DNA of 64,000 nt, taken from NCBI RefSeq assembly GCF_020405205.1, contig NZ_CP084469.1:2108001-2172000 (forward strand). Direction: 5' to 3'. Positions 53,613 through 62,970 of this stretch are shown piece after piece (within the stretch, counting starts at the first letter, position 1; every line of letters starts with the position of its first letter). The DNA is from Natrinema salinisoli. Lineage in GTDB: Archaea > Halobacteriota > Halobacteria > Halobacteriales > Natrialbaceae. The translations under genes and the position numbers were made by a program. A model generated the notes under the pieces. The model was not told where the DNA came from and did no database searches. It saw nothing but the letters and a program-made list of their open reading frames with translations.

Positions 53613-54026
53613 ATGATCAGTGGCAATAACACGATCGTTCCCGACGACGGGACCGCGATTGACGATATATTCGACGCGTTGGCGGACAGGCATCGACGAC
53701 GGTTGCTTATCGAATTACTGGACGGTGATCGACGGTACGTTTCGAAATTAACCGGCGTTTCCCGGGACCTCGCCGAAGCGGACGAGGAACTCCTTCGCAA
53801 ATGCCTGTCAAATGAGGGACTCGTTTCACAGGCGGACGAGGAACTCCTCCTGAAACACCAGATTCACCTCCCCAAGCTGGCCGAGTACGGCTTCGTCGAG
53901 TGGGACCGAGACGAGCACGTGGTCACGAGAGGGCCACGGTTCGACGACGTACGGCCCGTTCTCGAATTCTTGGAGGGCCAGCAGAACGAACAGCACCTCG
54001 AAGAGATCGAGATATCTCCTCGATGA
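53613..54026 (+). CDS. Winged-helix transcription regulator (DUF7344-like)
   Basis: 137 residues. IDDIFDALADRHRRRLLIELLDGD begins the winged helix; a 30-residue insert has two similar pieces (ADEELLRKCLSNEG and ADEELLLKHQIHL), followed by LAEYGFVEWDRDEHVVTRGPRFDDVRPVLEFLE. This is the haloarchaeal DUF7344 pattern, a putative DNA-binding regulator. No partner gene. GTTTTTAAGACG, about 45 bases upstream of the ATG, is a likely TATA. Confidence 0.7.
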   Translation: MISGNNTIVPDDGTAIDDIFDALADRHRRRLLIELLDGDRRYVSKLTGVSRDLAEADEELLRKCLSNEGLVSQADEELLLKHQIHLPKLAEYGFVEWDRDEHVVTRGPRFDDVRPVLEFLEGQQNEQHLEEIEISPR

Positions 54027-54358
54027 GTACTGAGGACGACACACCACGGCAGATCTCCGCTGCGGAGGGGCTCTCTTCCGGCCACTGAATTCGCTCTCGG
54101 GAGGCGTCTCCGAAACCGGTCGTCGGATCCGTCGGCGTTCGATCGCTCGAGAGGCGGTGACTCCGCCGCCCATCGGCCCCCATCACAACGCTTTTATCCG
54201 ACTCGAGAGTAGCCGTAGCCACGATGGTAGGTGTCCGCTTTACAGGGGCGTTTGCCCGTTTCTAATTCCCACCTACCGCGTATTGTGTCGGCACGAGTCG
54301 GCCAGTGTGCGGAACGCGGATGCGGACACGCCACCGGATTTTCACCACAGCCACAGCC
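54027..54358 (+). promoter_or_regulatory. thrS leader region with TATA, mini-ORF and hairpin
   Basis: CTTTTATCC at 54191 is a TATA, so RNA should begin near 54218-54224 and run about 140 bases before thrS. It contains the mini-ORF at 54224-54265 and a stem made of 54226-54233 and 54270-54277 that encloses a smaller GGGC/GCCC hairpin. No other gene is visible. Confidence 0.5.
54224..54265 (+). CDS. Putative leader peptide upstream of thrS
   Basis: ATG about 30 bases from the TATA at 54191, then 13 codons giving MVGVRFTGAFARF and TAA. The first codons lie in the left arm (54226-54233) of an 8-bp stem whose right arm is 54270-54277, beyond the stop. Ribosome position on the mini-ORF would decide whether the stem forms. 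Only one Thr codon is present, so if this is attenuation it may sense something other than Thr-tRNA, such as translation rate. Confidence 0.4.
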   Translation: MVGVRFTGAFARF

Positions 54359-56302
54359 ATGTCAGAATCAGACTCACAGGAGCAGCTAACGGTCGTACTG
54401 CCCGACGGATCCGAACTCGCGGTCGACGCCGACGCGACGGTCGAGGACTGCGCCTACGAGATCGGCCCCGGTCTCGGCAGCGACACGGTCGCCGGCAAAC
54501 TCGACGGCGAGCTCGTCGCCAAGGAGGCGCCGGTCTACGACGGCGCCGAACTCGAGATCGTCACCGACGGCAGCGAGGAGTACCTCGAGGTCATGCGCCA
54601 CTCCGCATCTCACTGTCTCGCCCAGGCCGTCGAGCGCCACTACGACGACGTCGACCTCGCCATCGGGCCGCCGACGGACGAGGGCTTCTACTACGACTTC
54701 GATAACCTCGATATCGACGAGGAGGATCTCGACAACCTCGAGGCCGAGATGGAAGCGATCATCGCCGAGGACTACGACATCGAGCGCGAAGACGTCTCGA
54801 TCGAGGAGGCCGAGCAGCGGCTGGCCGACGAACCCTACAAGCTCGAGCTGCTCGAGGAGTTCGCCGACGAGAACGACACCGTGAGCTTCTACAAACAGGG
54901 CGAGTGGGAGGACCTCTGTGCCGGTCCCCACGTCGACTCGACGGGAGAGATCGGTGCGATCGAACTCCTCGAGATCGCCGGCGCCTACTGGCGCGGGGAT
55001 GAAGAGAATACGATGCAGACGCGCATCTACGGCACCGCCTTCGAAGACGAGAGCGATCTCGAGGACTTCCTCGAGCGGAAACAGGAAGCCGAGAAGCGCG
55101 ATCACCGCCGGATCGGCAACGAGATGAACCTCTTCTCGATTCAGGACGTGACGGGGCCGGGGCTGCCGCTGTATCACCCCGCCGGAAAGACCGTCCTCTC
55201 GGAGCTCGAGGAGTTCGTCAAGGAGCTGAACGAAGATGCGGGCTACGACTACGTCGAGACGCCACACGTCTTCAAGACGGACCTCTGGCACCGGTCGGGC
55301 CACTACGAGAACTATCAGGACGACATGTTCATCTTCGACGTGGGCGACGACGAGTTCGGCCTGAAGCCGATGAACTGTCCCGGCCACGCCGCCATCTTCC
55401 AGGATCACTCCTGGAGCTACCGCGACCTGCCGATTCGCTACGCGGAGAACGGCAAGGTCTATCGCAAGGAACAGCGCGGGGAACTCTCCGGGCTCTCGCG
55501 GGTCTGGGCGTTCACGATCGACGACGGGCACCTGTTCGTCCGCCCCGAGCAGATCAAGAGCGAGGTCGAGGAGATCATGGACATGATCACCGAGGTGCTC
55601 GACACGTTCGATCTCGACTACGAGATGGCCCTCGCCACGCGCCCCGAGAAGTCCGTCGGCAGCGACGAGATCTGGGACCGCGCGGAGGAGCAACTCGAGA
55701 GCGTCCTCGACTCCCACGGCCACGAGTACGAAATCGAGGAGGGTGACGGCGCCTTCTACGGTCCGAAGATCGACTTCGCCTTCGAGGACGCCATCGGTCG
55801 ATCGTGGGACGGGCCGACGGTCCAACTCGACTTCAACATGCCCGAGCGGTTCGACCTGAACTACGTCGGCGAGGACAACGAGGAACACCGGCCGGTCATG
55901 ATCCACCGGGCGCTCTACGGCAGCTACGAACGGTTCTTCATGATGCTCATCGAGCACTACGAGGGTCGGTTCCCGCTGTGGCTCGCCCCCGAACAGGTCC
56001 GCGTGCTGCCGATCTCCGACGACAACCTCGGCTACGCCCACCGCGTCGCGAACGAGTTCGACGACTTCCGCGTCGAGGTCGACGGCCGCGACAGTACGCT
56101 CGAACGGAAGATCCGTGCGGCCCACGACGATCGGGTCCCCTACCAGATCATCGTCGGCGACAACGAGGAGGAAGACGGCAACATCTCGGTTCGCGACCGC
56201 TTCGAGGACCAGGAGTACGACGTCGAGATCGAGGAATTCCGTAGTCACCTCGAGGCCGAGCGCGAGGAACAGCGGACGGAGCCGGACTTCCTCGCGAACT
56301 GA
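54359..56302 (+). CDS. thrS: Threonine--tRNA ligase, bacterial-type
   Basis: 647 residues from the ATG at 54359. TGS domain (residues 8-70), then the N2 editing domain with [18 protein letters not shown] (HxxxH motif), class II core ([10 protein letters not shown] zinc Cys, [14 protein letters not shown]) and C-terminal anticodon-binding domain ([11 protein letters not shown]...). This is the bacterial plan; most archaea have a DTD-like N-terminal editing domain instead, so ancestral transfer is likely. The leader with a mini-ORF precedes it. Confidence 0.95.
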
Positions 56303-62832: not shown

Positions 62833-62970
62833 CGCGGGCGTTTGCTGGTTCAATCCCGACCGGGGCACGTGCCCCGCGGATCACATCCCGACCTGTGACC
62901 GGCTGTCGTACAGGTGCCCGCTGATGCCCGCGAACCAGCGAGTCTACTCACTCTTCCCAACTCTCGAGTA
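62833..62970 (-). promoter_or_regulatory. Structured 5' leader of rpl15e
   Basis: A TATA-like CTTATACTCG (minus strand, about 62970) would give a leader of about 120 bases. It contains an unbroken 16-base palindrome (62861-62876) and two crossing inverted pairs: 62833-62839 with 62926-62932 and 62844-62851 with 62932-62939. Such alternative pairs fit control of a ribosomal protein gene by its own product. Confidence 0.45.

Follow-up and report, generated by a model that had tools for sequence, protein, structure and literature searches.

A candidate translated regulatory leader upstream of thrS in Halobacteria

What does the region between the predicted promoter and the start codon of thrS do in Natrinema salinisoli? 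In the window analysed here (the whole stretch of 64,000 nt), thrS lies at 54359–56302 on the forward strand and encodes a threonyl-tRNA synthetase (ThrRS) of the bacterial type (TIGR00418, 673 bits), in which Pfam recognises the TGS, SAD, class II core and anticodon domains. Its closest named match is the enzyme of Natrinema salsiterrestre (97% identity), in a comparison from which the window's own record was possibly left out. A gene for a DUF7344-domain protein (Pfam; 53613–54026, forward strand) lies directly upstream of the thrS leader. The original prediction, made from the DNA letters, concerned positions 54191–54358, from the TATA box through to the start of thrS, and placed there a leaderless 13-codon frame whose translation would keep an 8-bp stem from forming. 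We find that this element is real and conserved and, in all likelihood, functional. With moderate confidence, we interpret it as a translated regulatory leader of thrS, which would work like a bacterial leader-peptide attenuator and sense the decoding of ACA.

The mini-ORF and its rare threonine codon

The predicted frame is present as described. A mini-ORF of 13 codons and a stop (ATG GTA GGT GTC CGC TTT ACA GGG GCG TTT GCC CGT TTC TAA, encoding MVGVRFTGAFARF*) occupies 54224–54265 on the forward strand, and a TATA-like box, TTTTAT (54192–54197), starts 32 nt 5′ of its ATG. This spacing recurs: in 97 of 104 distinct leaders, drawn from 117 gathered, the last TTT 5′ of the ATG starts 29–32 nt away (leader counts, here and below, are raw and ignore shared ancestry). 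From the promoter spacing, we infer that the 5′ end of thrS mRNA lies at the mini-ORF ATG or a few bases off, in agreement with the leaderless start proposed originally. A transcription start past the stem is not suggested, since a TATA-like string is found between stem and thrS in 3 of 89 leaders. ATG alone was accepted as a start codon, and every leader had one; leaderless initiation in haloarchaea is reported to require AUG (PMC3986360).

Each of the 104 distinct leaders has, in the frame of the mini-ORF, a stop codon no more than 39 nt from TTTACA, whereas the other two frames have one that close in 0 and 6 of 104, which argues that the reading frame is under selection. The first in-frame stop falls 15–39 nt past the start of TTTACA and can be TAA, TGA or TAG, and the mini-ORFs comprise 10, 11, 13, 14, 15, 17, 18 or 30 codons. 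Standard leaders have GTA, GCA or GTT as codon 2 and GTC or GGC as codon 4. Codon 5 is CGC in 54 of the 104 leaders, TGC in 17, CGT in 16, TAC in 12 and CAC in 5; because it can thus encode Arg, Cys, Tyr or His, the letters of the mini-ORF appear to be selected at the level of RNA rather than peptide.

These differences bear on the idea of nascent-peptide arrest, whereby the encoded peptide would act in the ribosome tunnel. Phe-Thr is indeed kept, and the peptides commonly finish with Ala-Arg-Phe; however, residues 2, 4 and 5 and those from 8 on are variable, the last residues are not constant (ARF, ARN, ART, GRST, GPL), and 10 codons, the length of the shortest leaders, make a short peptide for the exit tunnel. 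We consider peptide arrest very unlikely.

What is kept is the pair of codons UUU ACA (codons 6–7, 54239–54244), identical in 104 of 104 leaders, a constancy to be read with the fact that TTTACA itself was used for recognising leaders. The window's mini-ORF contains a single Thr codon, as the original prediction stated, and this codon is the rarest of its set: ACA makes up 26 of the 987 Thr codons in 42 ORFs of the window, and 8 of 1100 in the thrS genes sampled. TTT accounts for 45 of 570 Phe codons in the same 42 ORFs. A gene for tRNA-Thr(UGU) is present in the genome. From the lone Thr codon, the original prediction had concluded that the sensing principle would be new. The codon count stands, but the claim of novelty is weaker, as the codon is the rarest one for Thr, is kept and directly precedes a GC-rich hairpin; moreover, leaders at valS and ilvB (see below) are similar and use the rare GTA, which points to decoding of the cognate codon, a principle known in bacteria. 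As a separate observation, the window's own genome holds a tRNA-like gene whose anticodon is predicted to have four bases (atgt; L199 78–150 / L186 2162–2234).

Decoding alone leaves one feature unexplained, namely that UUU is never UUC in recognised leaders. An unchanging wobble base would be natural for a structured RNA with a directly bound ligand, either uncharged tRNA-Thr(UGU) or ThrRS, with the reading frame secondary. UUUACA is kept in an unpaired strand beside the stem, and its UUACA is complementary to UGUAA of tRNA-Thr(UGU), such that in the tRNA variant UUACA would meet the anticodon loop (CUUGUAA). Direct binding, however, would explain neither why the ATG sits at a fixed promoter distance nor why leaders of different lengths have in-frame stops in 104 of 104 cases. 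With the valS and ilvB evidence added below, we judge it fairly unlikely, and continue to favour a translated leader that senses decoding.

Alternative pairings of the first codons

The stem, here called P1, has the predicted form. Its 5′ arm, GGTAGGTG (segment 1, 54226–54233), lies in the first codons of the mini-ORF and pairs over 8 bp with the 3′ arm, CACCTACC (segment 2, 54270–54277), which starts 4 nt past the stop codon. The 57-nt element has a folding energy of −21.4 kcal/mol (z −3.13), matched by 1 of 200 dinucleotide shuffles. Of the ungapped complements to the 5′ arm in the first 45 nt counted from the stop, the best in the window reaches p = 0.005 by base shuffles; the same test gives p < 0.05 in 89 of 101 leaders of standard spacing and misses the remaining 12. 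The 3′ arm was sought downstream of the stop only, so its post-stop position is partly built into these p-values. Directly 3′ of ACA, the fold contains a second hairpin, P2 (GGGC-GTTT-GCCC, 54246–54257).

For covariation we used an alignment, A1, of 49 leaders (47 distinct) out of 57 listed. P1 cells are 99.5% paired, a figure that flatters the stem because the leaders left out of A1 are mostly those with weak ungapped P1 (L054, L100, L101, L113, L114, L143) or another register (L102), along with L006. Six of the eight pairs have no unpaired cells at all, and pair 5/64 is U-A in 36 leaders, C-G in 8 and U-G in 3, hence fully compensated. P2 is weaker than P1, at 82.1% of cells paired. The structure as a whole is 94.9% paired in A1, falling to 35–55% once the partner is slid by 1–3 columns. 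Both the number of double-change cells (10) and the covariation score lie above all 500 shuffles; the 2 pairs that show a double change are no more than shuffles give (173 of 500). Outside A1, P1 is kept with other letters, as a stem of 13 bp in L212 and L215, as GGUGACU/AGUCACC in L213 and L214, and as GACGGUAG/CUACUGUC in L102. L143 and L144 have no clear P1, and L059 has none by the ungapped test. From these pairing data, the P1 stem is judged to be under selection, and conservation of frame and stem, on which the original prediction depended, is borne out both here and in the genome census below. At one pair of loci, L131 differs from L130 by an inverted-repeat insertion at the end of the mini-ORF, which shifts the stop and the 3′ arm.

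Could the conserved letters instead act as DNA, with a transcription factor binding an operator across the start site? High nucleotide conservation beside the promoter would fit this, but compensated changes between arms ~45 nt apart would not, nor would a kept frame, and an operator strikes us as extremely unlikely. A regulatory leader acting as RNA is the better reading of the same data.

The original prediction missed a competing downstream arm, as it did the sister leaders described below. In the window, GTGTCCGC (54231–54238), which takes in part of segment 1 and extends beyond it, is also complementary to GCGGACAC (segment 3, 54322–54329; p = 0.006), and the helix formed between them excludes P1. 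RNAfold favours the segment-3 helix, at −48.9 kcal/mol, over a fold in which P1 is imposed (−47.1 kcal/mol). A further hairpin, P3 (54276–54312), is predicted by RNAfold alone and would lie between segments 2 and 3. A segment-3 partner is found at p < 0.05 in 55 of 101 leaders, and in several lineages its letters track codon 5: CGC goes with GCG, CGT with ACG (L004, L025, L143, L144; ACGGACAC in L004 and L025), and TGC with GCA (L103–L108, L113, L114; GCAGACAC in L103–L105, L107 and L108). In L133, the tracking extends over codons 4–5, with GGC TAC matched by GTAGCC (GTAGCCAC).

We considered segment 3 as a universal feature and rejected this. A leader's own codon 5 is the best match in 49 of 53 leaders with CGC, 7 of 14 with CGT and 10 of 17 with TGC, and in only 2 of 12 with TAC and 0 of 5 with CAC. 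Segment 3 is missing in f7, f4-g72, f1-g6 and others; its absence from several lineages marks it as a lineage-specific addition and not part of the core. Of 86 leaders scored, 51 have both of the mutually exclusive stems (P1 and the segment-3 helix), with the alternative predicted to be the more stable in 39 of the 51 (median −2.5 kcal/mol). For the 35 leaders that have P1 without segment 3, P1 is part of the minimum-energy fold in 21.

Distribution and sister leaders at valS and ilvB

To what extent is the element tied to ThrRS? ThrRS homology, which is independent of the motif, gave 60 named loci; 57 include upstream sequence, the other three starting within the gene. Of these 57 ThrRS genes, 54 are preceded by the element. 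The three exceptions come from Halorubrum, Halobaculum and a nanohaloarchaeon; two lack the element, and the third, L052 (the nanohaloarchaeon), has a mini-ORF, MKGGRFTLPRN*, with TTT ACC, so that ACC replaces ACA, ~90 nt before thrS and near an AT-rich box.

Of the 391 genomes of the class, 119 contain an exact 15-base pattern, as compared with 10 hits for a reversed control. Thirty loci were read by this pattern, and two of them (L098, L099) looked unrelated and were dropped. A covariance model, R1, scores in 128 of the 391 genomes, with one match each, three of them false. These include 99 of the 101 genomes of the window's family, f1 (matches that were not each read base by base), and 29 others; the two f1 genomes that lack an R1 match also lack a ThrRS match. 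All 29 matches outside f1 were read: 26 precede a ThrRS gene, called by its TGS-domain string and, for three, by Pfam, and they fall in f7 (9), f4 (8), f10 (3), f5 (3) and f17 (3). The other three (L218–L220) are not before ThrRS and were dropped as false. R1 was built from leaders of f1, f7, f10 and f4-g72, and its result is therefore a census for these groups; the matches in f17, f5 and other f4 genomes lie outside the model. Across the phylum, under strict filters, R1 matches 16 of 294 sampled genomes, all f1 or f7. The element is absent from six upstream regions (L137–L142) that lack the pattern and belong to other f4, f5 and f12 genomes.

The 26 include five genomes with two ThrRS matches that carry the element (G116, G149, G236, G157, G344); in G149 and G236, it and the best-scoring ThrRS gene are on different contigs. 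In G300, likewise one of the 26, the element precedes an archaeal-type ThrRS gene (NF003068, 827 bits) with the Archaea-specific editing domain (PF08915). On this genomic evidence, the element is judged to go with ThrRS as a function, the ThrRS genes being of two types. Searched at the DNA level, the window's own genome returned this site and a single further short match. The mini-ORF peptide, used as a protein query, returned nothing in 61 genomes, an empty result that is uninformative because the search had no known positive.

In a partial survey, we also looked upstream of the genes for eight groups of synthetases in four genomes, covering 33 loci (the start codon was missed in eight of these, and in four of the eight the stretch lay inside the gene). 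A leader of the thrS style was found at valS only. There, the mini-ORF ends in VGAx*, with GTA GGGGC NNNN TAG CCCC. At leuS (L228, L237, L255), the upstream region holds a conserved string, ATGGAAAG[GC]TATAGGGC (MERYRA../MESYRA..), which has no Leu codon. In L227, L236 and L254, the start codon of valS is overlapped by another small ORF (GCATGA or ACATGA), an arrangement that suggests coupled translation.

The pattern GTAGGGGCNNNNTAGCCCC is found in 104 of 194 genomes, often twice, and its reversed control in 8. We read 53 loci (50 distinct places, as L269/L306, L277/L302 and L283/L304 were each read twice): 39 precede ilvB, which encodes acetolactate synthase, and 14 precede valS. Four of the 14 valS loci were named after a closer look, and examples of valS and ilvB were confirmed by family models. 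The leaders with GTA GGGGC NNNN TAG CCCC are L227 (−), L236 (−), L254 (+) and L257–L306. In five genomes chosen for having two sites, each has one site at valS and one at ilvB; all ten follow GTA, and dropping GTA from the pattern adds none. The reversed control gives two matches in these five genomes, both in G042.

Like ACA, the kept codon is rare, GTA making up 41 of the 1360 Val codons in the window's ORFs. GTA GTA is seen in 5 of the 14 valS loci, two of which are one place. In the ilvB leaders, Ile, Leu and Val account for 127 of 288 positions in the nine residues before the final Val, versus 35 of 437 earlier in the peptide; the same stretch read in shifted frames gives 71 of 288 (+1) and 10 of 288 (+2). 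The valS leaders are not, overall, rich in these residues, with 18 of 108 near the end versus 19 of 114 before. Promoter spacing is tighter at ilvB than at valS. The codon before GTA varies (ATT, ATC, CTC, TTC, GTA, CGT), so extended anticodon pairing does not operate at valS and ilvB, and this counts against a ligand-binding RNA.

The thrS, valS and ilvB leaders share a common plan: a mini-ORF near the promoter, a cognate codon that is rare, a GC-rich hairpin directly 3′ of this codon, and a stop in or after the hairpin. This plan is in keeping with sensing by translation. The plan also bears on the idea of a constitutive 5′-end element, in which P1 and the mini-ORF would set mRNA stability or basal thrS translation and sense nothing. 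P1 does close the 5′ end, and the distance to thrS varies, as such an element would allow; it would not account for a rare cognate codon kept in the thrS, valS and ilvB leaders, nor for mutually exclusive stems in 51 leaders. We think it unlikely that the element is constitutive, and retain the codon-sensing leader as the preferred interpretation.

A working model and its relation to known systems

How might a translated leader control thrS? The mRNA would start at or near the mini-ORF ATG, so that a ribosome loads on its extreme 5′ end. The speed of this ribosome at the single rare ACA would report the charging of tRNA-Thr(UGU). While waiting on ACA, it would cover approximately nt 1–31 (an assumed footprint) and hide segment 1, and since segment 1 is hidden, neither P1 (1:2) nor, where present, the 1:3 helix could form, and thrS would be expressed. 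Were ACA read promptly, the ribosome would reach the stop and leave, segment 1 would refold, and thrS expression would fall. Translation of the mini-ORF, the direction of the response and the output are the inferred parts of this model.

Candidate outputs are termination by RNA polymerase, translation, or decay from the 5′ end. The distance from P1 to thrS ranges from 34 to 214 nt among 89 leaders, a spread that favours an output read at the switch itself (e.g. termination or 5′-end decay) over direct hiding of the thrS start. A scan with the bacterial consensus for intrinsic terminators gave no terminator-like sites in 54100–54420. In the 12 nt after P1, T makes up 37% of bases, versus 16% in the stop-to-thrS region; such a T-rich stretch would suit release of RNA polymerase, though it proves nothing. 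We set aside the possibility that the 3′ arm of P1 pairs with a Shine-Dalgarno (SD)-like string, since SD is reported to be unused at 5′-UTRs in H. volcanii (PMC3986360). Such strings occur in 17 of 103 leaders, mostly outside f1.

Against the model, a single Thr codon may be a weak signal. In the variants of 30 codons (L040/L136, L135), segment 1 lies ~59 nt before ACA, which does not fit simple masking, since a ribosome stalled at ACA would not hide it.

Leader-peptide transcription attenuators are well known in bacteria, e.g. thrL, ilvL, ivbL and trpL. The present leaders resemble these, and actinobacterial ones, in that a short leader ORF with cognate codons, kept here as the rare ACA (thrS) or GTA (valS, ilvB), precedes a synthetase or biosynthetic gene and has stems at the ORF. 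Unlike bacterial attenuators, they are archaeal and apparently leaderless, and segment 1 consists of the first codons of the ORF itself; thrS, furthermore, has a single cognate codon and, within the region scanned above, no intrinsic terminator of the bacterial kind. With sequence as the evidence and no intrinsic terminator found, the leader-peptide attenuator serves as a working model, and the thrS leader is a candidate rather than an established member of that class. At the operator of thrS in E. coli, the synthetase binds the leader of its own message. Autogenous control may operate here as well, but the P2 loop is not conserved in A1 and, by eye, there is no mimic of the tRNA-Thr anticodon.

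Candidate leaders of ilvB, trpS and leuS have been described in Actinobacteria (PMC1262725). In the Streptomyces coelicolor ilvB leader peptide, changes to regulatory codons were reported there to be without effect, which cautions against reading mechanism from layout (PMC1262725). Within Halobacteria, dRNA-seq of Haloferax volcanii found uORFs in long 5′-UTRs; of the 16 cases listed, two precede synthetase genes, for tryptophan--tRNA ligase (23 aa) and pheS (26 aa) (PMC4983044). These resemble our leaders as small ORFs before synthetase genes and have independent transcript evidence; they differ in not being at thrS. The main text of PMC4983044 does not use the word 'attenuation', and according to a 2021 study neither attenuation nor antitermination is known from archaea (PMC8448881). 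In the part of the literature that was searched, we found no account of archaeal leaders at thrS, valS or ilvB.

The chances seem to us evenly balanced that Halobacteria possess a class of leaderless translated leaders, each sensing one rare cognate codon (ACA at thrS; GTA at valS and ilvB; perhaps others at pheS and trpS). If so, no attenuators would be known from archaea before these, and at thrS the switching strand would be the beginning of the leader ORF itself. The leaders also suggest that bacteria are not alone in having evolved or retained control by cognate-codon decoding. Having three target genes along with kept codons and pairing partners, they are exact candidates for experiment, and they raise the questions of whether archaea regulate genes through the coupling of transcription to translation and in what way a leaderless ORF can serve as a sensor.

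A last comparison is with the T-box riboswitch, which controls synthetase genes in bacteria and needs no translation. The thrS leader has the same kind of target gene and a codon-like triplet; it differs in its kept reading frame and in having no Rfam match. The original expectation that no T-box would be found holds as far as tested, as Rfam, its T-box model included, gave no match to 54150–54420 up to E = 1. Elsewhere in the window, at 62842–62914 on the reverse strand, Rfam gives a match to the eL15-Euryarchaeota ribosomal protein leader (38.6 bits).
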